This document shows positions 95-35,516 of a stretch of 35,516 nucleotides of DNA, in pieces. The stretch spans positions 1 to 35,516 of the forward strand of contig JAFCDN010000013.1 in NCBI GenBank assembly GCA_017609625.1, in the 5' to 3' direction. How positions within the stretch are numbered: position 1 is the stretch's first letter; the number at the start of each line of letters is the position of its first letter. The stretch is from Candidatus Iainarchaeum sp. (GTDB lineage: Archaea; Iainarchaeota; Iainarchaeia; Iainarchaeales; 1-14-0-10-31-34). Under the pieces are notes generated by a model. It saw nothing but the letters and a program-made list of their open reading frames with translations, was not told the origin of the DNA and did not search any database. Made by a program: the position numbers and the translations under genes.

Positions 95-3000
95 CTAATC
101 AAAGAAATATTCTGCTTTTTTTGGCTCTGGATCCATGCCTTTTCTTTTCCTGATGTCAACTGTAGTTTTATTCTGTAATTCTCTTGGAAGCATTTCATAC
201 CCTGAATATTCTGCTGTCCAGACTGCTCTTCCTTGTGTTGCCCCGCGAATCGCAGCGCTAAATCCAATTAGTTCTTTTACTGGAGCTTTTCCTATAATAA
301 TTGTTTGATCTCCTTCGTTTCTCATGTCTTTAATCTGTGTTCTTCTAGAACCTAATTCTTTGCTTACTGCTCCCATGAAATTCTCAGGAACCAGAATTGA
401 TAAAGTCTGTTTTGGCTCTAACAATATTGGATCTGCTTGCAGCATGCATGCATAAATTCCTCTTGTAACTGCAGGCAGAACTTGTGCCGGCCCGCGATGA
501 ATTGCATCTTCATGCAGTTTTGCATCTACTATTACAACTTTTACTCCATGGACTTTTTCTTTTGCTAAAGGCCCCTGGTTTGTTGCGTCATTAAATGCCT
601 GAATAATAAGTTCTTTTACTTCAAATAATGCTTCAATTCCTTTTGTTGCATTAACTATAATATTGTTGTTGTTTACTGCCCAGATTCTTTTTGCCTGGTC
701 TCTTTCAAATCCCATTTCAATAAACTGTTCAACCAAATGTTTGTCTTTGTCTCTGATTTTTCCCTGGATTTTTGATTCAATTAATTTTTCCAGTATTTCT
801 TCCGGGATTTTTTCAACATGCATTAAGAATTTATTGTGCTTGTTTGGAGTTTTTGCCTCGTGTTTTAATGGAGAATTTTTTGTTATTGTTTCTCTATACA
901 CTACTATTGGCGAACTAACCGTAATCGGAACTTTATGGTCAACCTCAATTCTGTGCTGGGTTACTTCTAAGTGTAATTCTCCCATTCCTGAAAGCAAGTG
1001 TTCTCCTGTATCCTGATTTATTGCTGCTTTAATATTTGGGTCTTCTTTTGTTATCTGCCTTATTACTTCAATTAATTTCGGCAGATTTTTTGCTTCTTTT
1101 GCTTCAACTGAAACAGTCATTACTGGTTCAGCGTTTGACATAAAGCTTTCAAATTCATTTATTTGTTTTGTTGAAATTGTTTCTCCTGCATAAACTTCTT
1201 TTAATCCAACCAATGCAGCAATGTTTCCTGCCGGCACTTCGCTTACTGCAACTCTTTCCGGCCCCATGAATAATCCTACCTGTTGAACTTTGATTTCTTT
1301 TTGTGAGCCAATTAATTTTACATCAGTTCCTTTCTGGACTTTTCCTGAATAAATTCTTCCTGTTGCAACGTCTCCTGCATGAGGGTCAACGCTTACATCT
1401 ACAACCATCATTGCTAATGGTCCGTCTGGATCACAGTTTAACATTGCTTTTCCTTCTTCGCTTTCTATTTCTCCTGCCCAGATTTTTGGAATCCTGTATT
1501 TTTGTGCTTCTAATGGGTTTGGCAAATGCTGTATTACTAATTCAACTATTGCTTCATATAAAGGACTTTTTTCTGCCAAAGTTTTTTGGTCTTCGTTTTT
1601 GCAGAAATCAAATACATCTTTAAAGCTGATTCCAGTTGTTTTCATATGTGAAGCAGAAACTGCCCAGTTATAATAAGCTGAACCAAAAACAACTGAACCT
1701 TTTTCTACATTTACTTTCCATTTTTCCTTAAACTGTTCTGGGGCATTTTTGTCTATCAGCCTGTTAACTTGAGTTATTGTTTTTACAAATCTTTCCTGCA
1801 TTTTTTCCGGAGTCAACTGCAGTTCATTAACCAGTCTGTCAACTTTATTTATAAACAAACAAGGTTTTACATTTTCTTTTAATGCCTGCCTTATTACTGT
1901 TTCTGTCTGCGGCATTACTCCTTCAACCGCATCCACTACTAATATTACTCCGTCTACTGCTCTCATTGCTCGAATTACTTCTCCTCCAAAGTCAATGTGC
2001 CCTGGAGTGTCAATTATATTAATCAGATGATCTTTGCCTTTGTAATTCTGTACAATTGAAACATTTGCTGCGTTGATTGTTATTCCTCTTTGCTGTTCAA
2101 GTTCATAATAATCCATGAACTGCTGTTTTCCTGCCAGCTCTGTTGAAATTATGCCTGAAGCAGCAATCAAATTGTCTGTCATTGTTGTGTTGTGAATAAT
2201 TAAACCATTTCCAATAAAGTTATGTGTGTCCTCTACACTAAAGTCATAAACAAATTCTTCTCTTTGAAATTCTTTTTTTGTAACAAATAGAGTTGAACAG
2301 TCAAACAATGTTTTTTCAATTTCCTGTATTTTGTTCCATGCTTCAGGATTCTTAATTTTTGGGTTTCCAACAAAAGAATAAACAGTAGAAATAAATTCCT
2401 GAAAATTCAGTGAGTAAACTTTTTGCTTGCCTAATTCAATTGCTTCCTGTGTTTTTTTGAATACATTTAATGGAATTTGCAGTTCTTTTCTTACTTGTTT
2501 CAGAATTCTGCCAGAAATTGGTAATGCATCAGTATTCCTGTTTGTTTGTGTAATTGCAGCAAACTTTAATGCTTTAACCTGCTTTCTTTCCAGTCTAAAA
2601 CCAACCTCTTCACTAAAAGTTTTTAAATTTGTTCCAGAAACATAAATAGTTTTATTTTTTGCATTAAATGTAGCAAGACACCCAAACCTTAAAAGACTAA
2701 TTTGAAGCTGCTTTAAAATTTTTATTGATTTAGAGTTTAAGCTGGCAGCCCTTCTAGATGTTTCAACTGTTCCATCTGAGTCAAAATAGCCTTGGATGAA
2801 TGCTTTGAGAAGCTGGTTTGAAGAGCTCTGAATAAGTTTTGGGATTTCAATGCTTTCAGATTTTTTCTCTAAAGGAAAATTAAATGCTTGTTCCAGAATT
2901 TTCAAAAAAGTTAATCCTGCTCCCAAGTCAATTCTTGTTGCTTTGCCTTTATATTTTCTTTCAATAGCTTTAACTTTGAAGACTTTTTCCATTATTGATT

Positions 3001-3931
3001 TTGTTTCATTAATTATTTGTCTGTCTTCATTTGTTATTCTGATTTCTTTTCCTGATTTTCCGCCATCTCCCCATATTAGCCCAAGAAGATACATAAATTC
3101 AGTGAACTCATATTCTGTTTTTGGAAGTTTTAAATCAATTGAAGAGTGACCTTCTTTTTTCAGGCTTTTTCTGTAGTTGATTGATTCAATCTGTTCAAAG
3201 CAGTTGTATTTGAATTTTTCGCATATTTTTTTGAAATCCTTTAATCGGTATCTTCCATTGTATGCTCCATGATAAAAAGATTTGTTTTTAAGTTTTGAGT
3301 CAATTTCCTTTCTTGTTTTTTCCAAACCGTAATCAAGAATTTTTCTTTTAACTTCTAATGAATTCCTTCCATTTAACCTGACAAAAAAGCCTTTGTCTCT
3401 TGTAAGGAGTTTCAGAATATTTTGTTTTAATTCATTTAAGTTTGTTGAAGTTGTTTTAATGAACTTTGGAGTTAAAATAAAATCATTTAATTTTATTTCT
3501 TTTGCTGTTCTTTCTGAAATTTCCCCATGCTCATTCAAGCACAAAAATTTGTGTTCAAAGGTTGTTTTAATTGTAGATCCATTAGAAAGAGTTAATTTAA
3601 CAAGTTTTTTGTCTGTCTTGAGCTTCCAAATATGGGTAATTTTTTTTGGAGCTATTTCTTTTTTGTTTTTGTCAAAGCTTAAAACTTTTTCATTTAAATT
3701 TGATACATCAAAAACTATTTCATTTTTAGTTTCTTTTACTTTTTTTCCTTTCTCTGATAATTCAAATAAATTTTCTGCTTTTTCAATTCTTCCGTCCGCA
3801 AGCAACAAATTTGTTTCTCTGCTAACACATTTTCCATGGTCAATATGTGCTACAACACCGATATTCCTTATGTTTTCTCTTTGGCTCATGTATTTTTGTG
3901 CTTCTTTTGCTACTTCTTCCCGTTTGCTCAT
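95..3931 (-). CDS. fusA: Translation elongation factor 2 (aEF-2) precursor interrupted by an intein
   Basis: Exteins carry GHIDHGK/TTMTDNL (G1), DTPGHIDF (G3), NKVDRL (G4) and the diphthamide region LHEDAIHRGPAQ. Extein total is about 731 aa, normal for aEF-2. Upstream 'AGGTGATGAAATG' gives an SD. Confidence 0.97.
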   Translation of the reverse strand: MSKREEVAKEAQKYMSQRENIRNIGVVAHIDHGKCVSRETNLLLADGRIEKAENLFELSEKGKKVKETKNEIVFDVSNLNEKVLSFDKNKKEIAPKKITHIWKLKTDKKLVKLTLSNGSTIKTTFEHKFLCLNEHGEISERTAKEIKLNDFILTPKFIKTTSTNLNELKQNILKLLTRDKGFFVRLNGRNSLEVKRKILDYGLEKTRKEIDSKLKNKSFYHGAYNGRYRLKDFKKICEKFKYNCFEQIESINYRKSLKKEGHSSIDLKLPKTEYEFTEFMYLLGLIWGDGGKSGKEIRITNEDRQIINETKSIMEKVFKVKAIERKYKGKATRIDLGAGLTFLKILEQAFNFPLEKKSESIEIPKLIQSSSNQLLKAFIQGYFDSDGTVETSRRAASLNSKSIKILKQLQISLLRFGCLATFNAKNKTIYVSGTNLKTFSEEVGFRLERKQVKALKFAAITQTNRNTDALPISGRILKQVRKELQIPLNVFKKTQEAIELGKQKVYSLNFQEFISTVYSFVGNPKIKNPEAWNKIQEIEKTLFDCSTLFVTKKEFQREEFVYDFSVEDTHNFIGNGLIIHNTTMTDNLIAASGIISTELAGKQQFMDYYELEQQRGITINAANVSIVQNYKGKDHLINIIDTPGHIDFGGEVIRAMRAVDGVILVVDAVEGVMPQTETVIRQALKENVKPCLFINKVDRLVNELQLTPEKMQERFVKTITQVNRLIDKNAPEQFKEKWKVNVEKGSVVFGSAYYNWAVSASHMKTTGISFKDVFDFCKNEDQKTLAEKSPLYEAIVELVIQHLPNPLEAQKYRIPKIWAGEIESEEGKAMLNCDPDGPLAMMVVDVSVDPHAGDVATGRIYSGKVQKGTDVKLIGSQKEIKVQQVGLFMGPERVAVSEVPAGNIAALVGLKEVYAGETISTKQINEFESFMSNAEPVMTVSVEAKEAKNLPKLIEVIRQITKEDPNIKAAINQDTGEHLLSGMGELHLEVTQHRIEVDHKVPITVSSPIVVYRETITKNSPLKHEAKTPNKHNKFLMHVEKIPEEILEKLIESKIQGKIRDKDKHLVEQFIEMGFERDQAKRIWAVNNNNIIVNATKGIEALFEVKELIIQAFNDATNQGPLAKEKVHGVKVVIVDAKLHEDAIHRGPAQVLPAVTRGIYACMLQADPILLEPKQTLSILVPENFMGAVSKELGSRRTQIKDMRNEGDQTIIIGKAPVKELIGFSAAIRGATQGRAVWTAEYSGYEMLPRELQNKTTVDIRKRKGMDPEPKKAEYFFD
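2189..3829 (-). mobile_element. Intein (547 aa) with LAGLIDADG homing endonuclease inside EF-2
   Basis: N-terminal block CVSRETNLLLADGRIEKAENLFE, B-block-like LSNGSTIKTTFEHKFL, two LAGLIDADG-type motifs (LLGLIWGDGG; FIQGYFDSDGTVE), C-terminal block YDFSVEDTHNFIGNGLIIHN followed by T. Removal restores GHIDHGK-TTMTDNL. Confidence 0.96.
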
Positions 3932-3981
3932 TTCATCACCTAAACTTTTTCTAAAAGCTTATATATTAATCAAAAATATTA

Positions 3982-4587
3982 TTACCTTGAACTTACTGCG
4001 ATTCTTTCTACTTCGTTTTTTCTTTTAACAGAAAAAGAGTTTGAATCATTTTTTGAAGCTAAAATCAGTTCTTTTGCCAGAGTCTGTGAAGCTTTAACTT
4101 TTTTGTTGAAAGAAGAAGCAAATGCAGATAATGCAATGTTTTTCAATGCCTCATCTATTCTTTTTAACGGAGCTAAATCAACTGAAATTGTGTAAGCGAT
4201 TCCGCCTTTTTTTATTCTTGTAATGTCTTCTCTTGGGGCAGAATTTTCTAATGCTTTTACCAACACCTGCAATGGATTTTGTTTTGTTTCATTTTCTATT
4301 ATAAAAAAAGCATCTTCAACTATTTTCATTGCATGCAGTTTTTTTCCACAGCTTTTTCTTCCTCTAATATACTTTCCTGATAATTTTCTTTTTCCTTGCC
4401 CTGAACGCATTACTTTGTTTATCAGTCTTTCAACTATGTTCAGGGTTCCTTTTGAAAGTCTTTTTCTTGTGTTTTTTCCAAAAGTGTGCGGAATTATTTT
4501 GTCTTCAAAGTTTATGTATTTCACTAAACTAATGTCTTGTATTTGCACTTCTTCTGAACTCCATTTTCCAAATAATGCTGTTTTCAT
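3982..4587 (-). CDS. rps7: 30S ribosomal protein S7 (uS7)
   Basis: Motifs NIVERLINKVMRSGQGKRKLSGKYIRGRKS and LENSAPREDITRIKKGGIAYTISVDLAPLKRIDEALKNI; operon context. Confidence 0.95.
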   Translation of the reverse strand: MKTALFGKWSSEEVQIQDISLVKYINFEDKIIPHTFGKNTRKRLSKGTLNIVERLINKVMRSGQGKRKLSGKYIRGRKSCGKKLHAMKIVEDAFFIIENETKQNPLQVLVKALENSAPREDITRIKKGGIAYTISVDLAPLKRIDEALKNIALSAFASSFNKKVKASQTLAKELILASKNDSNSFSVKRKNEVERIAVSSR

Positions 4588-22775: not shown

Positions 22776-25757
22776 TTATTTTGGGATAATAATTTTAACT
22801 TCTGTTTTTTCTAGGTCTTGTTCTAGTTCTGGATATTCTTTTGTCAACTCTTCTATGCTTGAATATCCTTGGATAGTTGTTGTTGGGCTTGCTGGTTGTT
22901 CGCAGTTTCCGCAAGGGCATTCAGGAACATTTTTTTTGTAAACCCAGTTAATCATATAAACCACATCAGTTGGGTTAATAGTTCCATCATCGTTTATATC
23001 CCCACAGGGAACATAACAGGCTGTAGGATCTTCAAGATTCTTGTAAACATAGTTTATCAGGTATACAACGTCTGTTGGAGAGATTGTTTTATCTCTGTCA
23101 AGGTCTCCGCAGAAATCAAACATTTTTTCAGCATTAATTCTTTTTCCAATTGGTTTGTCTGTTTCTATATAATCTCCTGTCCCAACTATTATTTCCTTAA
23201 CTTTTTCTTTAGATAATTCTGGGTTTTTGGATAACAACAATCCCGCTAATCCTGCAACATAAGGACAAGCCATTGAAGTTCCGGAAGCAACATAATAATT
23301 TTCATTAACAATTCTTCCTAAAGTTCCATACATGTCAGACCCTTCAGCTCTTAGAGATAAAATGTCTTTTCCTGGTGCAGCAACATCAACCCATTCCCCG
23401 TAGTTTGAAAATGATGCTTTTTGGTCATATGCATCTGTTGCTGCAACTGCAATAACATTTTCATAACCAGCAGGATAAAATTTCAAGTCAGTATTATTAT
23501 TTCCTGCAGCTGCAACCAATAAAACTCCTTTATCATAAGCATAATTCAAAGCGTTCTTAATTGACATTGATTCTTCAAAACCTCCAAAACTCATGCTTAT
23601 TACATCTGCTCCATTGTCTGCGGCATAGTATACAGCCTGTAGTATATCTTTTAGTTCTAAAGTTCCTGCAAGGCTTCCTGCAACATCTAAAGCAAAACCT
23701 GTTCTTATAGGCATTATTTTGCAGTCAGGGCATATTCCAGCAATTCCTATTGAATTGTCAGTGCTAGCTGCAACAATTCCTGCACAATGTGTTCCATGTC
23801 CATGAACATCAAAAGGATAATTATCCTCTTCTGTATAATCTTCTTCTGGTAAACCAAAATAACACCAGGTTTCATAATTATCAAGAATTATATCTACAAA
23901 ATCATAACCTGTTCCTTCAGGACAGCCATTACTGCAATCTGCCAGCATATTATCTCTTAAATCCTCGTGAAGAAAAACTATTCCAGTATCAAGAATAGCA
24001 ATAATTGGTTCTTTTAGGGATGGCTTATCCCAAACACTAACAGCACTTACATCAGCTCCAGACGTCCCTTGATTAAATACAAGTTCTTCTGTTCTGCTCA
24101 AATCTAAAACCGCATATAAATCTCCAAGTAAATTTTCTTCAATATCTGAAATAATTGAATTATAAGGAAGCCCTTGAGAAAAAACACTCCAATTTTCGTC
24201 TTCTTTTTTCCATATGCTTTTATCTTCAGAAAAAACTATTGGATTAGGGCATGAAGTGTGTATATCACGGTCATCATTAAGGTAAGATAATCCAGCATAA
24301 ATAATATCCCCATTTTTTTCAATAGATGTTACTCTTTTATATCCAAAAACAGAATCTCTTTCCCAAAGATTTCCTGCATCTGTTGTTTTATAGAAACCAT
24401 ATCTCCCTCCAGCAAAAAGAACATTTGAATCAATTGCTTCAGTCTCTAAATCATGAATAATGTAATTATTGCCAGAAAAAGTATCAATAATCTCTTCATT
24501 TATTGCAAACCAATTTTCTCCAGAATCAGTTGATTTGTAAATTCCATTGTAGCCCAATGAGGCAGCATAAATATTATTATTGTTAAAATGGTCAATTTCT
24601 ATGTCAACAATATTACGAAGATATGAAAAAAGAGGTTTTTTTATCCATGTTAACCCTTTATTGGTTGTTTTATAAAAATTAAAAAACTGTTCACTATTTG
24701 AGCCAATGTCCCCCACAGCATACAATACATTTGGGTTAATAGGATCTGATTTAACAACACTAAACGCTTCAGAATATCGATCAAAATTAGTGAGATGTTC
24801 CCATGTTAAACCTTTATCAAAACTTCTATAAATCTTGTCATTGGTTGCAGCAAAAAGCACTCCGTCTGAAGTAAAAGTTATATCCATAACAGAAAAATTT
24901 TCGAGACCTACCCTGAACCAGCTGTTTCCACCATCTGTTGTTTTATAAATACCAGCTTCTGGATGGAAACCATCCCCTGCTGAACCAAAACCTCCTTCTT
25001 TTTTCAAAACGCCTGCTCCAATATACATGGTTTCAGTATTATCAGGATCAAATAATATCCTGCTCAGGAACAAATCAGGAAGCCCAGTAGAAACATCCAC
25101 CCACATTTTTTGAACAGGATCAAATTTAAACAATCCTCCGTTTTTCTTTTGAGGTGTATAGTAATTTTGCTCTGTGTTTTTCAGAGGCCACTGGTATTCA
25201 AAAAGAGGGTCATCTGGTATGTAAGAAGTATAAAATAAATAATTTGGTTCTGCATATTCAACATTTGGGTCAGCTTTATAGTATTCTGCTAGCGCAGGAA
25301 TATCTGCACTTAAATCAACATTAATAAGAAAAATTGTATTTAAGCTGTAAGTGTCAGCAACTACATCCTTTTTGATTAACCTTTCTATTTTTTTAATATT
25401 TGATATGGTAGAAGCAGTTTTTACCTTTGAGTTCTGCAAATATGAAGAAGCTTGGGAATCAGTTGTAATTCCTGTATTTTGTTTAAATTTAATAATCAAT
25501 TCTCCAGAAACATATCTAGGTAATTGCTTTTCCTCTTCCTCCTCAAATTTAACACAAACATTTCCTTCATCTATTTCTTTGTCGCAGTCATTATCTTTTC
25601 CATCACACACTTCAGTTGATGGAAAACAAACTGGTTCTTTTGGAATCAGTTCTTTTTCCACACTTAAAGATTTTATTGCTATTCCTACTCCGTCTTCTGT
25701 ACAGCCGCTGAACATAATTACAAAGATCAGAAAAAATGTAATGAATTTTTTTTTCAT
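22776..25757 (-). CDS. Secreted lipoprotein subtilase: MopE-like motif, I9-like propeptide, Asp-box propeller insertion, S8 catalytic domain, C-terminal dockerin
   Basis: Start trimmed from 25775 to 25757 (MKKKFITFF). Lipobox MFSGC; CFPSTEVCDGKDNDCDKEIDE; S8 motifs IIAILDTGI, GHGTHCAGIVAA, GTSMACPYVAGLAGLLLS; dockerin repeats CGDLDRDKTISPTDVVYLINYVY / CGDINDDGTINPTDVVYMINWVY. Confidence 0.92.
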   Translation of the reverse strand: MKKKFITFFLIFVIMFSGCTEDGVGIAIKSLSVEKELIPKEPVCFPSTEVCDGKDNDCDKEIDEGNVCVKFEEEEEKQLPRYVSGELIIKFKQNTGITTDSQASSYLQNSKVKTASTISNIKKIERLIKKDVVADTYSLNTIFLINVDLSADIPALAEYYKADPNVEYAEPNYLFYTSYIPDDPLFEYQWPLKNTEQNYYTPQKKNGGLFKFDPVQKMWVDVSTGLPDLFLSRILFDPDNTETMYIGAGVLKKEGGFGSAGDGFHPEAGIYKTTDGGNSWFRVGLENFSVMDITFTSDGVLFAATNDKIYRSFDKGLTWEHLTNFDRYSEAFSVVKSDPINPNVLYAVGDIGSNSEQFFNFYKTTNKGLTWIKKPLFSYLRNIVDIEIDHFNNNNIYAASLGYNGIYKSTDSGENWFAINEEIIDTFSGNNYIIHDLETEAIDSNVLFAGGRYGFYKTTDAGNLWERDSVFGYKRVTSIEKNGDIIYAGLSYLNDDRDIHTSCPNPIVFSEDKSIWKKEDENWSVFSQGLPYNSIISDIEENLLGDLYAVLDLSRTEELVFNQGTSGADVSAVSVWDKPSLKEPIIAILDTGIVFLHEDLRDNMLADCSNGCPEGTGYDFVDIILDNYETWCYFGLPEEDYTEEDNYPFDVHGHGTHCAGIVAASTDNSIGIAGICPDCKIMPIRTGFALDVAGSLAGTLELKDILQAVYYAADNGADVISMSFGGFEESMSIKNALNYAYDKGVLLVAAAGNNNTDLKFYPAGYENVIAVAATDAYDQKASFSNYGEWVDVAAPGKDILSLRAEGSDMYGTLGRIVNENYYVASGTSMACPYVAGLAGLLLSKNPELSKEKVKEIIVGTGDYIETDKPIGKRINAEKMFDFCGDLDRDKTISPTDVVYLINYVYKNLEDPTACYVPCGDINDDGTINPTDVVYMINWVYKKNVPECPCGNCEQPASPTTTIQGYSSIEELTKEYPELEQDLEKTEVKIIIPK

Positions 25758-25780
25758 ATAATTAAGTTTATGCATTAGTA

Positions 25781-26914: not shown

Positions 26915-27988
26915 ATGGAGAAGATTAAAGTAGATATTCTCTGCCTTTATGCAAAAAAGACCGGGCAGACAGTTTATCTTGATAATCTGGCAGAAGAACT
27001 GAAAAACCTTGTTGACCTGAAAATAATTTATCCAAACAATAGTTATGTTTTTAGTTTTTTGAACCGCTTTAATAGTCCTTTGGCAATAAAATCCCTTCCT
27101 TTTGTTGTAAAAAAAAGAATCAGAAAAGACTCTATTGTCCATATAGTAAACCAAGAAATCTTTTTTCTAATTCCCCTAATTAAAAACCCTTTAGTGGTTA
27201 CCCTGCATGATTTTGGCTTGTACACTTACTATTTGGTTTGGAAGAAAAAAGAAATTCAGCTTTTGGATAAAGTTGAAAAAATAATCTGTGGTTCAGATTC
27301 AACAAAAAAAGAATTATTAAAACATTTTCCAAGGTTTGAAGAAAAAGCTGTTGCAGTACATAATTCTTTAAGAAAAAAATTCAAAAAAAGCACGCAGGAT
27401 TTAAGAAAAAAATTCAATTTAAAGCCGACTGACAGGATTATTTTGTTTGTTGGAAGCGATGACTCAAAAAAAAATTTTCTATCTCTTTTGAAAGCGTTTT
27501 CTGAATTAAAACAAGATAATTTAATTCTAGCCAAAGTAGGGCTTCCCTGGAGTTTTAATGGAAACCAGAGGAAAAATTTTGCAGAGTTTATTTTGAAAAA
27601 CAATTTAGAGGAAAAAGTAAAGTTTTTTGATTCTCTTCCAACACAGGATTTAATTGATTTGTATTTTGAAGCAGAAGTTTATGTTCAGCCATCGCATTAC
27701 GAAGGTTTTGGTTTGACTTTATTGGAGGCAATGGCTTCTGGGACTCCAGTAATTTCTGCAGACAATACTTCTCTTCCAGAAGTTGCAGGAAACGCAGCAT
27801 TATTTTTTAACAGTAAAAACGAAAAAGAACTAAAAGAAAAACTTGAAGAAATTCTGAACAACAAAAACCTGCAGAAAGAATTAATCCAAAAAGGCTTTGA
27901 AAATGTAAAAAGATTCAGCTGGAAAGATTCTGCAGAAAAAGTTTTTGGGGTTTATAAAAAAATAAAAAGAAAAGAAAAAGAAGATTAA
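26915..27988 (+). CDS. Glycosyltransferase family 4 (GT-B); start trimmed from TTG 26897 to ATG 26915
   Basis: DRIILFVGSDDSKKNFLSLLKAF; VYVQPSHYEGFGLTLLEAMASGTPVISADNTSLPEVAGNAALFF. Confidence 0.9.
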   Translation: MEKIKVDILCLYAKKTGQTVYLDNLAEELKNLVDLKIIYPNNSYVFSFLNRFNSPLAIKSLPFVVKKRIRKDSIVHIVNQEIFFLIPLIKNPLVVTLHDFGLYTYYLVWKKKEIQLLDKVEKIICGSDSTKKELLKHFPRFEEKAVAVHNSLRKKFKKSTQDLRKKFNLKPTDRIILFVGSDDSKKNFLSLLKAFSELKQDNLILAKVGLPWSFNGNQRKNFAEFILKNNLEEKVKFFDSLPTQDLIDLYFEAEVYVQPSHYEGFGLTLLEAMASGTPVISADNTSLPEVAGNAALFFNSKNEKELKEKLEEILNNKNLQKELIQKGFENVKRFSWKDSAEKVFGVYKKIKRKEKED

Positions 27989-29979
27989 TAGTATTTAGGG
28001 TAATTGTTTTCTTCTTTTTCTGCCATTACAAGGGTTTTTATCAGGCTTAAATCTTCAAGAGAGTTTGCCAGAATTTTGTTGTTTGAAATAGTGTAAAGAA
28101 CATCTCCGATAAATAAAGATCTTTTTACTTCAGTTCCTCCTCCTGAATAATAATAGCCGGATTTTTCCAGTGAATCATCGTCTTCATCAAGGTGAGTGAT
28201 TCTTCCCTGCAACTGGAAACCGTTTTCTAATGAAAGATTATACACATAGGCTCCTTGGAAAGTAAAGTCTCCATACATTGGACCCCAACGGTCTCCTCTT
28301 TCATATGCTTCTCTCTGCTCATCTGAAATCTCTGCTAACTGCACTGGAATCACTAATAAGTTTTTTTCTTTATCAAAAAGAAATGCTTTATGGTCTTGTA
28401 ATGCATAAGATTCTGTTCCTCTGTCTCCAATTATTTCTTTGTACATTTCTTTTGGGTGCTCTACATCAGAAACATCAAACACTGCTATTTTGATTCCCTG
28501 ATACCATGCAAAGTCTCCTTCTTTTGCTTCAATTGTGTCTTTTCCTATTCCAATTAAATGAGTTTCATCTATTGGGTGCAAATAATCAGAGTATCCAGGA
28601 ATTTTTAGTTTTCCTAAAACTTTTGGGTTTTCTGCATTACTTAAATCTATTACAAACAATGGGTCAATTTTTTTGAATGTCACTAAATAACCTTTTTTGC
28701 CCATAAATCTTGCGGAATAAATCTGTTCTCCTGGAGCAAGGTCTTCTAGTTTTCCTTTTATTTCCAGATCTTCTCCAAAGATGTAAATATTGTTTGATGT
28801 GTTTCCTCCCATTCTTGATGCATTGCCTGCTGTAGTTGCTATTCTAAAGTTTCCTTCAAATTCGTCCATTGAAAACTGGTTTAATATTCTTCCTGGAGCC
28901 TGCATTACCCCTAAGTAACCAATTTTTCCGTTTTGCAGAGAAAACTTGTGAACTGAAGTTTGTTCTGTATTGTTTGATATGACACTTTTTACTACATCAA
29001 CTACTTCTGATACAATTGGAATGTAATCAGTGTAATTGTATTGAGTCTGTGCAATGTATAAATTTTCCTGTGATGCATAAAGGTTTTGTGCTGAACCAAC
29101 TACTGTTTCTTTTTCTATTTCTGAATTAAAGTTGTTCATTGAAATTGAAGCTAAAGTAACAAAGCTTTCTGGGTTGATTGGAGGCAGATATCCAATATCA
29201 GTACATCTGCTTATTTCTTTGAATTCATCTCCTTTATCTGAATCAGAATACAATGGAACAATTCCATCTCCGCCATCTTCCAAAACCCTATAGTTTGGAT
29301 AAGAGTTTATTACAAAATAAACATTTTCATTTATTTTTCTTGAATTCAGATAAGAACCTTCAAATTCAACTGTTCTTTTAATCTCTGGATTTTCTTTGCT
29401 GCTTATGTCAATCATTTTTATTACTGCTAAATTGCTTCCATAATAAGGATAATATTCTCCTGGCGCAATTGATTTTTCTGCATTTTGTTTTTCATATTCT
29501 CTGTAACTTTGTCCAAAAACCAATACAACATCTTTGTGAATAAAAATTTCTGTTGGATTAAACTCTAAATCTGTTTTTGATAAAATTTGTGCTGTTTCTG
29601 CTGGAAAAGCTTCTGCTATAATCAAATTTTTGTTTGATATAACATAAATGTATTTTCCGTCTGTTTTTACTATGTCTGCTTCATCTACTCCTTCTACCTG
29701 AATGTTTGTTTCAGAATATCTTGGAGTTGCTGAACTTGAGCTGTCACTTTTTGCTGTTCCGGATTCTGACATCATTGGAGCTCCAATCATGTCCATTATT
29801 CCATAACTTCTTCCATAATTGTTTTGTGCTGCTTCAAAAGTGTTTTTTATTTCTGTGCAAGAAGAAAATTTTGGGATTTCTTTTGTCTGCTTTACTGGCT
29901 CTGGCGGGGTAATGCACCCTGCAATAAATAAACTTGAAACTAAAAACAAAACTAAAACAATTTTTAAACTTTTTTCCAT
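27985..29979 (-). CDS. Beta-propeller domain-containing lipoprotein (archaeal secreted beta-propeller family)
   Basis: LFIAGC lipobox; YSETNIQVEGVDEADIVKTDGKYIYVISNKNLIIAEAFPAE; DLSNAENPKVLGKLKIPGYSDYLHPIDETHLIGIGKD. Confidence 0.88.
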   Translation of the reverse strand: MEKSLKIVLVLFLVSSLFIAGCITPPEPVKQTKEIPKFSSCTEIKNTFEAAQNNYGRSYGIMDMIGAPMMSESGTAKSDSSSSATPRYSETNIQVEGVDEADIVKTDGKYIYVISNKNLIIAEAFPAETAQILSKTDLEFNPTEIFIHKDVVLVFGQSYREYEKQNAEKSIAPGEYYPYYGSNLAVIKMIDISSKENPEIKRTVEFEGSYLNSRKINENVYFVINSYPNYRVLEDGGDGIVPLYSDSDKGDEFKEISRCTDIGYLPPINPESFVTLASISMNNFNSEIEKETVVGSAQNLYASQENLYIAQTQYNYTDYIPIVSEVVDVVKSVISNNTEQTSVHKFSLQNGKIGYLGVMQAPGRILNQFSMDEFEGNFRIATTAGNASRMGGNTSNNIYIFGEDLEIKGKLEDLAPGEQIYSARFMGKKGYLVTFKKIDPLFVIDLSNAENPKVLGKLKIPGYSDYLHPIDETHLIGIGKDTIEAKEGDFAWYQGIKIAVFDVSDVEHPKEMYKEIIGDRGTESYALQDHKAFLFDKEKNLLVIPVQLAEISDEQREAYERGDRWGPMYGDFTFQGAYVYNLSLENGFQLQGRITHLDEDDDSLEKSGYYYSGGGTEVKRSLFIGDVLYTISNNKILANSLEDLSLIKTLVMAEKEENNYPKYY

Positions 29980-30087: not shown

Positions 30088-33000
30088 TTAAGTTATATCT
30101 ATATCCCCACAGTTTGTGGGATAAACCCAGGATTCTGTTTTTTTGTCATAATATGGCGTGCAAGTTGTTATGCATGTTCCTTCAATGCACCCTATTGAAC
30201 AGTATTCAGGTATTTTTTCTTCACAGTTTCCATAAGGGTCTGGGCAAGCATATTTTATTATTCTGCTTGAATCTAAACAGTAATTGGAGTGTAAGCCTTG
30301 ATTGTCTGTGCAGCCATTTGAGGTCACTGTACAAATTGGATTGCATTTTCCATCTGAACAGCCTCCATAACAAATTGTTGGGGGATAATAATCACAAAAC
30401 CCTTGTTCTCCTGAATTACAGTAAGCTTCATTTATGTTGTCGCCAGAACAATAATCGGAATTAACACTAATCCCCTTCTCAAAAATTTCTGAACAAGTTC
30501 CTGTAACAGTATTATTTATTCCATTATCTGAATCTTTGCAGCTAAGGCATTCTCCACCTCTGCACCCATACCTGCATGTTGAATCAAAAGATTCTTGATT
30601 GAGGATATAAACAGATCTGTCATTATTTGAATTACAATAATTTTCTACAATGCCACAATTTTGTTGTGTTTCAGTGCATGAAAAAACTTCGACACCATTA
30701 AGAGTGCAGTAATCATAAGTATCATGCGCGCCCTCCAAAACATCTTGAAGGTCTTTTGTCAAGCCTTTTTCAAATATTTTTATTCCATTATCAGAATCTG
30801 TGCAAGGACTTGGGCAAAATGTTTCATTGCATCTATAATATTGTTCTCCACAATCTGTTTTTTCTATACAAAGCGGATTTTCATCAAAGTAGTTTGGAAA
30901 TCCAGGAGAAACTTTTTCAACACAAACCCAAACCCCTGTTCCTCTGCAACCAAACCAACCATAAAAATTTCCGCCAACAAAACAATCTTCATTGCATTGG
31001 TCTCCATAAGGATTGTTGATTCCTAATGGCGCAGCATAATCACATAATTCTCCTTCATCTAATGTGCCATTGCCACAGCTGTTTGAAACGAGTTCATCAA
31101 ATGTGCTGTTCCAATTATTTAGTTCTTCTTCAAAGTTTCCGTTTTTTATAATATTTTCATAAGTTTGTGTAGCATTTGGATAAGCATCTTTATAATTTCC
31201 GTAATTAATTTTTTTTTCTAATTCCCATTTCCCGTCTGCTTGCTCTAATGCAACCATATAGTGTCCATCATCAGTGTGGCTTGGATACCATTGTTTGTTA
31301 TTTCTTGTATTGACAGTTTCATCAATATGCCATATTAAAAGACCTTTTCCAGGCAAGTATGTGTCATAGCCTATTTTTTGCCTGTTTTCAATAAGAAAAT
31401 ATTCTTCACTAGAAAGATCATTGTCTGTCCATAAACGAAAAACTCCTTGGTTAGAATTTTCTGAATTAGGGAGCTGAATTGTTGCAGGAGATGTTGCAGG
31501 TGTTTTTGGATTTATAAAACCCAGTTTAACTTTGCTCCATGCATCAAAATGTGAAGGATAGCTTCCATCATAATTTGGACCACTCCATGAACCAAGTGCC
31601 ATTACACTCCATAATCCTAATCCATGCGAGTCATAATCATAATCATATAAATCAGGCAAGCCAAATAAATGTCCTATTTCATGACAATAAACTCCTATTG
31701 TCATGTCTTCAGGGTTAGTCCAGTATTCAGGCTGAATTGAATATCTAGAAATATCAACTCCGTCTCGATTTTGTGTAGAAATGCCCCATGCATGTGACCA
31801 AATGTCATTTGAACTCCCTGTTTTTTCTGCGCCAGGACCTGTATGAACTATAACTAAACCTTCAACTTTACCATCTCCATCATTGTCGTATTCAGAAAAG
31901 TCTACTGTCGGATCAATAATTTCTATTAAGTCTTCCGCTAATTTTTGGCTGTTTTGTGGATATCCTCCAATTCCTTGCTGTGCATTAACATAGTATGAAT
32001 ATGTTTCTGGAGCTCTTTTCCATCCCATAGAAGAAGGAAGATTAACTGTTATTATATCAAGCTGGCTGTAAGAATTTTCTCTGTAATATAATCTGACAGA
32101 ACTCTCAGTTTCTGAAAAAATAAGTGAATCAAAAAACAATGGTTCTACTTGAGAAACATTGTCTGAGAAGTCTGCCAAAATAACAAGAATTTTAAAGTCA
32201 GTTGCAGAATCAGCTTCTGATATTGTTTTTGTCAATGCTTTTGATTCTAAATAATCTATAAGCTTAAATTCCCCTGGCTGGTCTAAACCTTTTTCTATTA
32301 GTTCATTCCTTTTTTTTATAGCATAAGGAATTTCTATTATTCCTTCTTTTATTTTTTCTTCAAGGTCTGGATGTGAGGGCATTGGAGAAGGTGCAGATAC
32401 AGAAACAGTTGCAGTCATTGTAGATTCCGAACCTGAAATGTTTTCAATGCTGATTCCAGTATCAGTTCCATCATAATTTCTTGAATCTGGTTGGGTGTCA
32501 AATTTAAATGCAATATTTCCTTCACCGGTTTTTCTTAATTCTACATCATCAACATAATTATATAATGACAAATCCAAATTTCCTGAGCCAGCAGTAATAA
32601 CAAGTTTTGGATTGTCATTTGTTGAATCAGGAGTTGTAAATACACATTTTGTTTGATTCCAGTCTTCTGTTACATTTCCATCGCAGCCCAAACTTCCAAA
32701 ATATGTCTCTCCGCAATAGCTTAAATCATTATCAGAACATATTGTAATTCTTGTTCCTTCTGAATAATTTCCTAATAAACTCCAGTAAGAAAGTATATAT
32801 TCAGTATTTGGTTCAAGAGTTAGAGGTTGATAAAGTTCTAAATTTCCTTTAATTGCCTTTACACAATAATTTCCCGAATGACACTGAAGAGCTGTTATAG
32901 CTTGAGCAGAAGTTTCACAAACTCTTTCTTCGTCTATTTGTGTATCGCAGTCGTTGTCTTTTCCGTCGCAGATTTCAGTTGAGGGAAAACAAGCAGCTTC

Positions 33001-33099
33001 TTTAGACAAAGGTTTAAACGCTTCTCCTATTCCATCTTCAGCACAACCAGAAAAAAGAATAGCAAAAACCAAAAAAAAAAATGCAAAGTTTTTATTCAT
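30088..33099 (-). CDS. Secreted lipoprotein M6-family metalloprotease with MopE-like motif, CBM-like N-terminal domain and Cys-rich C-terminal repeats
   Basis: Lipobox ILFSGC; CFPSTEICDGKDNDCDTQIDE; HEIGHLFGLPDLYDYDYDSHGLGLWSVMALGSW (HExxHxxGLPDLYD); repeated C-DSDNGI-...-DYC-...-GGC/GGEC units. Confidence 0.9.
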   Translation of the reverse strand: MNKNFAFFFLVFAILFSGCAEDGIGEAFKPLSKEAACFPSTEICDGKDNDCDTQIDEERVCETSAQAITALQCHSGNYCVKAIKGNLELYQPLTLEPNTEYILSYWSLLGNYSEGTRITICSDNDLSYCGETYFGSLGCDGNVTEDWNQTKCVFTTPDSTNDNPKLVITAGSGNLDLSLYNYVDDVELRKTGEGNIAFKFDTQPDSRNYDGTDTGISIENISGSESTMTATVSVSAPSPMPSHPDLEEKIKEGIIEIPYAIKKRNELIEKGLDQPGEFKLIDYLESKALTKTISEADSATDFKILVILADFSDNVSQVEPLFFDSLIFSETESSVRLYYRENSYSQLDIITVNLPSSMGWKRAPETYSYYVNAQQGIGGYPQNSQKLAEDLIEIIDPTVDFSEYDNDGDGKVEGLVIVHTGPGAEKTGSSNDIWSHAWGISTQNRDGVDISRYSIQPEYWTNPEDMTIGVYCHEIGHLFGLPDLYDYDYDSHGLGLWSVMALGSWSGPNYDGSYPSHFDAWSKVKLGFINPKTPATSPATIQLPNSENSNQGVFRLWTDNDLSSEEYFLIENRQKIGYDTYLPGKGLLIWHIDETVNTRNNKQWYPSHTDDGHYMVALEQADGKWELEKKINYGNYKDAYPNATQTYENIIKNGNFEEELNNWNSTFDELVSNSCGNGTLDEGELCDYAAPLGINNPYGDQCNEDCFVGGNFYGWFGCRGTGVWVCVEKVSPGFPNYFDENPLCIEKTDCGEQYYRCNETFCPSPCTDSDNGIKIFEKGLTKDLQDVLEGAHDTYDYCTLNGVEVFSCTETQQNCGIVENYCNSNNDRSVYILNQESFDSTCRYGCRGGECLSCKDSDNGINNTVTGTCSEIFEKGISVNSDYCSGDNINEAYCNSGEQGFCDYYPPTICYGGCSDGKCNPICTVTSNGCTDNQGLHSNYCLDSSRIIKYACPDPYGNCEEKIPEYCSIGCIEGTCITTCTPYYDKKTESWVYPTNCGDIDIT

Positions 33100-35075: not shown

Positions 35076-35516
35076 TTAAGTGATGTTAGGCGTGTCTCCG
35101 TTATCTGCAACGCAAACCATTGTTCCTCCAACTTTTGTGCATGTCTGTCCTATTGGGCAGCCGCATTCCCAGCACCAGCTTTCAAATTCTCCGTTGTTGC
35201 AGTAATTTAATCCAGAGCATTCTCCTGTTGGAGTGCCGTTAGAGCAGAGTGGACATTTTCCTGGGCTTTGTGCGGTTCCATTTAATATTTGTGCAAGCAT
35301 TACAACATCAACTGCGCCTAAACTTCCGTTCCTGCTTAAATCTGCACAGCAGACATTTTCTGGAACAGGAGTTGTTCCTCTGTAAACAATTTCTGTTAAT
35401 AAATTCAGGTCTGTTTCTGTAATGTTTTGGTCTCCGTCTACATCTCCAATCTTTTGTCCTGTTATGCAGGGAGTTAAATTTACTGGGCCTTCAACATAGA
35501 CTTCTTTGTTTATTAT
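35076..35516 (-). CDS. Dockerin-containing, Cys-rich secreted protein, 5' end beyond the window
   Basis: Open frame extends to the window edge: IINKEVYVEGPVNLTPCITGQKIGDVDGDQNITETDLNLLTEIVYRG...CCADLSRNGSLGAVDVVMLAQILNG...; the ORF-track M at 35300 is internal. Two dockerin-like Ca-binding repeats. Confidence 0.8.
   Translation of the reverse strand: MINKEVYVEGPVNLTPCITGQKIGDVDGDQNITETDLNLLTEIVYRGTTPVPENVCCADLSRNGSLGAVDVVMLAQILNGTAQSPGKCPLCSNGTPTGECSGLNYCNNGEFESWCWECGCPIGQTCTKVGGTMVCVADNGDTPNIT

Follow-up and report, generated by a model that had tools for sequence, protein, structure and literature searches.

A predicted Asp-box beta-propeller nested within the catalytic domain of a subtilase from Candidatus Iainarchaeum sp.

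A stretch of 35,516 nucleotides of Candidatus Iainarchaeum sp. DNA (hereafter the window) encodes a 999-residue subtilase in which, as alignments and structural models together support well, a beta-propeller is nested in an otherwise contiguous S8 domain. The source genome (1.35 Mb, 70 contigs, completeness 91.7%) has 16S and 23S genes whose best fit is to archaeal models. The Asp/His/Ser triad (DTG, HGTH and GTSMA motifs) and the oxyanion Asn are intact, and by its sequence the protein is an active-looking S8 subtilase of the thermitase/MCP-01 type; the best PDB match of the modelled core is thermitase (TM 0.87 on target, rmsd 2.1 Å). The parts of the gene are listed in Table 1.

Table 1. Features of the subtilase gene, in window coordinates
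Feature	Residues	Position	Strand	Basis
Whole subtilase gene, 999 aa, secreted lipoprotein-type		22776..25775	(-)	One uninterrupted ORF; Pfam/NCBIfam S8 matches
Signal peptide and lipobox FSGC, Cys25		25701..25775	(-)	Sequence; leader common to other secreted proteins of the genome
MopE-like metal-binding motif, weak	54-70	25566..25616	(-)	PF11617 E 0.0012, under cut-off
Prodomain, Fervidolysin_NPro-like	82-178	25242..25532	(-)	PF22148 E 1.3e-7, above cut-off
Mature protease N-terminal segment YIPDDPLFEYQWPLKNTEQ, including predicted Ca1 ligand Asp189	185-203	25167..25223	(-)	Aligns with mature MCP-01, mirolase and kexin starts; pLDDT 70-86
Nested Asp-box beta-propeller of 364 residues; 7 blades predicted, with 2+2 closure	204-567	24075..25166	(-)	Asp-boxes; AF2 pTM 0.71 and strand pattern; Foldseek
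Asp-box 1, TTDGGNSW	279-286	24918..24941	(-)	Motif
Asp-box 2, SFDKGLTW	318-325	24801..24824	(-)	Motif
Asp-box 3, TTNKGLTW	370-377	24645..24668	(-)	Motif
Asp-box 4, STDSGENW	415-422	24510..24533	(-)	Motif
Asp-box 5, TTDAGNLW	464-471	24363..24386	(-)	Motif
S8 catalytic domain, main part: Asp596, His660, Asn759, Ser834	568-880	23136..24074	(-)	PF00082 E 3.9e-57; thermitase fold
Dockerin type I domain	890-943	22947..23108	(-)	PF00404 26.2 bits, cut-off 22.9

The conserved start of the subtilase is split, as the first-pass annotation of this DNA had reported, with DDPLFEYQWPLKNTEQ at residues 188-203, NQGTSGADVSAVSVWD resuming at residue 568, and the 364 residues of the insert between them. With the full-length protein as query, the match to MCP-01 starts only at residue 569, immediately past the insert. 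When the insert is deleted in silico, the check that the annotation had proposed, the flanks join into an MCP-01 match without a gap across the junction, the joined sequence DDPLFEYQWPLKNTEQNQGTSGADVSAVSVWD aligning with positions 5-62 of the mature chain (3vv3), and mirolase and kexin are gained as matches to the same stretch. Relatives retain the joined form: in a subtilase from the same genus, query residues 82-203 and 570-804 match only a few bases apart in a sequence read as IPNDSFFSYQWTLNNTGQTGGTNDADIDAIEAWD, and the junction is likewise uninterrupted in two members of the phylum (L039 and L048) and in most of some 40 viral-contig subtilases with a recognisable segment. AlphaFold prediction of the full protein supports the prodomain (folded, though weak at 126-145), the N-terminal segment (mean pLDDT 70 for residues 181-190 and 86 for 191-200) and the protease core (mostly above 90), leaving the insert without a resolved fold. 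Because relatives are uninterrupted, the insertion is in register, and the N-terminal segment is modelled with fair confidence, we regard the nesting, as read from alignment and model, as well supported. The placement at the pro/mature junction proposed by the annotation was slightly off, since solved mature chains are matched almost from their N-terminus; the insert sits about 19 residues past the likely processing site, within the mature catalytic domain.

All five Asp-box/BNR motifs named previously are present at the positions given in Table 1, whereas in 20,000 shuffles of the insert the count never exceeded three. The insert also matches Sortilin-Vps10 (PF15902; E 2.1e-8, score 33.8 bits, cut-off 33), with PSII_BNR and BNR matching more weakly, so that on sequence grounds a chance string of motifs is ruled out and the insert as a whole resembles Asp-box families. 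It does not qualify as a Vps10 receptor domain, for such receptors are defined by ten blades and a Cys-rich 10CC region, and here there are about seven predicted blades and one Cys (509) in the insert. Assignment to a glycosidase family (F510_1955 NF045728, or GH74) was considered and set aside, the NF045728 score being 63 bits, far short of the curated 175.

As the full-length model left the propeller unresolved, it was folded alone using AF2 with twelve sequences, giving a pTM of 0.71 and a mean pLDDT of 66, with the closing blade weakest (pLDDT below 50). The DSSP strand order, read by eye, gives six full blades, with the two remaining strands at each end pairing up as a seventh, and since this seventh blade is shared, the two ends of the domain would come together, an arrangement that nesting requires. 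A repeat profile built from blades 1-5 scored neither blade 6 nor blade 7 above shuffled sequence, and for this reason seven blades are the probable number and not an established one; the propeller fold itself is predicted with moderate confidence. Foldseek comparison with solved folds places the dispase autolysis-inducing protein DAIP first (1.7e-11, in an entry where it is complexed with part of thermolysin), followed by a Ralstonia BNR protein, GH74 enzymes, the Vps10 domains of SorLA and sortilin, and Ycf48; the matched entries include SorLA Vps10 with its propeptide and Ycf48 with D1 peptide. Binding propellers are matched loosely (TM about 0.5, rmsd 5-6 Å or worse), and GH74 glycosidases are among the matches. 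Searching by sequence again brings DAIP and Ycf48 to the top, weakly. DAIP, the best propeller fold match, was solved with a protease fragment (5fzp, 6fhp); it differs in being a free-standing protein with 14% identity to the propeller described here. DAIP acts on metalloproteases.

The insertion point follows a segment that supplies a predicted calcium ligand. The Ca1 side-chain ligands of thermitase-type enzymes are Asp5, Asp46 and Asn84 in protease C2 numbering (PMC12838322), and we looked for thermitase-type side-chain ligands at Asp5, Asp46/47 and Asn84/85; at the aligned positions of this predicted Ca1 site the protein has Asp189, Asp605 and Asn674. Because all three are kept, the N-terminal segment has reason to stay docked, and we infer that residues 185-203 dock on the core; in that case both ends of the propeller would be tethered.

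Accessory domains nested within subtilases are already known, the PA domain being the established case, and the propeller is a single example. PA domains are inserted between the catalytic His and Ser, unlike the propeller here. PA-domain subtilases likewise hold a complete accessory domain within the S8 catalytic domain, with evidence there for substrate binding (PMC5177683), but the domain is PA and not a propeller; a Pfam scan at E up to 1 gave no match to the PA family in the present protein. Of the solved enzymes, MCP-01 (3vv3), thermitase (1thm) and AK.1 protease (1dbi) share the core fold and catalytic motifs, and MCP-01 and the thermitase-type enzymes share the N-terminal DPxF segment, but in none of the three is there an insert between that segment and the core. 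Asp-box repeats and a subtilase also occur in one protein in Streptomyces avermitilis NP_824495.1, listed as Subt-BNR; by that listing its order is linear, subtilase and then BNR (PMC2605481), whereas here it is nested. In the literature we found one subtilase-then-BNR protein (PMC2605481) and PA insertions (PMC5177683), and no propeller nested within a subtilase.

The annotation had conceded that its novelty would fall if the nested architecture were common. We found no other nested form in the archaeal phylum or in the other sets searched, where it is thus not common. Protein and profile searches through 87 genomes of the phylum gave no second protein combining S8 and propeller, the propeller matches from 297 Actinomycetota genomes included none, and the combination was absent from plasmid and phage collections and from the ORFs of viral contigs. 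A joint screen of 227 loci yielded 148 S8 ORFs and 51 propeller ORFs, the two occurring in one ORF only in copies of this protein; many of these loci had only 1.5 kb of flank, and at these the screen covers a nested arrangement and misses a distant one. The propeller alone gave no match when queried against the viral collection, and a contig scan with rare peptides from the full protein returned a single match, an unrelated actinomycete subtilase. Two plasmid matches (H21 and H23) that seemed to extend into the propeller proved to be ordinary subtilases of 546 and 477 residues, and at two viral loci (L096 and L165) a subtilase and an Asp-box gene lie close together as separate ORFs on tailed-phage-like contigs and bear no relation to the present protein. 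A propeller at this site of a subtilase therefore looks new and so far unique, within the sample searched.

The closest comparison within the genus is a 1367-residue protein (L023, on contig C98 of genome G002; 158-4261, minus strand) whose leader, MopE-like motif, prodomain and N-terminal segment are shared with the present subtilase. Propeller-type repeats occur in it as well, of the FG-GAP kind, but these are C-terminal and its junction is uninterrupted. A Cys-rich insert of roughly 200 residues lies immediately before its catalytic Ser, and subtilases of the genus therefore accept inserts at more than one site. Within the catalytic domain of the Iainarchaeum subtilase there is a CxxC pair, CPDC (residues 682-685; window 23721-23732, minus strand), that is conserved in three subtilases of the phylum (L005, L039 and L048).

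Several other genes in the window and genome are notable. An M6 (immune inhibitor A-type) metalloprotease with a CBM_4_9 match (30088-33099, minus strand) has a leader 68% identical to subtilase residues 4-75, and the lipobox and MopE-like leader recur on a subtilase of contig C64, a metalloprotease of C26 and on C56, as well as in genomes of the same genus. A lipoprotein made up for the most part of a PF09826 'Beta_propel' domain (27985-29979, minus strand) constitutes a second propeller gene near the subtilase, and an elongation factor 2 gene with an intein bearing a LAGLIDADG endonuclease domain lies at 95-3931 (minus strand). Dockerin-bearing proteins are also encoded at 35076-35516 (minus strand) and on contigs C8, C36, C50 and C64. 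A cellulosome-like system would also need a cohesin, and none was matched by PF00963 in the genome as assembled (91.7% complete); a cohesin may be encoded in the missing part, or the dockerins may pair with something else. The dockerin of the subtilase is followed by a C-terminal tail, YSSIEELTKEYPELEQDLEKTEVKIIIPK (22779-22870, minus strand), which is found as well in a dockerin protein of the genome (L008, at about 1440-1530) that is 59% identical to subtilase residues 876-997, and this tail is possibly a sorting or anchoring tag.

We suggest, with a modest preference over the alternatives, that this is a surface subtilase with a complete propeller inserted as an accessory domain anchored at two points, which gives it a peptide- or protein-binding exosite. 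A complete and probably seven-bladed propeller would stand between the mature N-terminal segment and the remainder of the S8 domain. Folding of the enzyme would fall to the prodomain, which would then probably be removed just before YIPDDPLF. The Ca1 site would keep the short N-terminal segment docked against the core, and the propeller, thereby fixed at two points, would still belong to the mature protease. The protease would be lipid-anchored at the cell surface, where the propeller may serve as an accessory binding surface recruiting substrates or a surface partner. An exosite, which the annotation had raised alongside a latency device, is plausible by analogy because the nearest solved folds include peptide- and protein-binding propellers, and the PA domain inserted in subtilase P57, which binds collagen, offers a precedent for a nested domain that binds substrate (PMC5177683). 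That substrate capture by the propeller is mechanically coupled to Ca2+-dependent docking of the segment, which would be a new regulatory design for subtilases, we consider a long shot.

Other interpretations of the propeller deserve consideration. It could belong to an extended propeptide that is cut off C-terminally, serving as a module for folding, secretion or latency absent from the working enzyme; in sequence it does come after the prodomain, and the model folds prodomain and core confidently but not the insert. A segment of mature type is kept upstream of the propeller, however, in register with mature MCP-01 and carrying the Ca1 ligand Asp189, and since maturation of this kind would remove that segment the ligand would be lost, all of which makes an extended propeptide unlikely. 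We give a similarly low probability to a steric gate or latency device that restricts access to the active site. Propellers do gate active-site access in prolyl oligopeptidase and DPP4, and a 364-residue domain with two tethers could shade the cleft, but the insertion is at the Ca1/N-terminal face of the subtilisin fold, which we take to lie away from the cleft. Activity of AcpII is described as rising upon deletion of its PA domain in the passage of PMC5177683 that quotes this result, which is a point in favor of a gate.

Even less probable, in our judgement, is that the protease simply tolerates the propeller, which would then do nothing specific or would only stabilise. This would fit with there being only one example and with relatives, including the one in the same-genus genome G002, that are without the propeller, but the five well-formed Asp-boxes, the 364 open codons, and a base composition and codon use like those of the remaining gene together speak against decay or a very recent arrival. 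These compositional features (insert GC 0.326, third-position GC 0.20, with codon use resembling the remainder of the gene) also bear on whether an assembly or binning artefact has fused two genes, a concern raised by the single copy in a 70-contig, 91.7%-complete assembly. Because GC is alike, both joins are in frame and in register, falling precisely at one homologous site with nothing lost, and the genome has no second propeller copy with which to recombine, we regard such a chimera as highly improbable.

As a single example, the insertion of a propeller in a subtilase is a neat architecture and no surprise in principle. It does show that the subtilisin fold has room, between the N-terminal calcium segment and the catalytic core, for an entire 360-residue propeller. 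If the propeller binds substrate, nature would here have supplied a template for equipping a robust protease with recognition domains, and the protein would give a hint as to how small archaea target proteins on their own surface.
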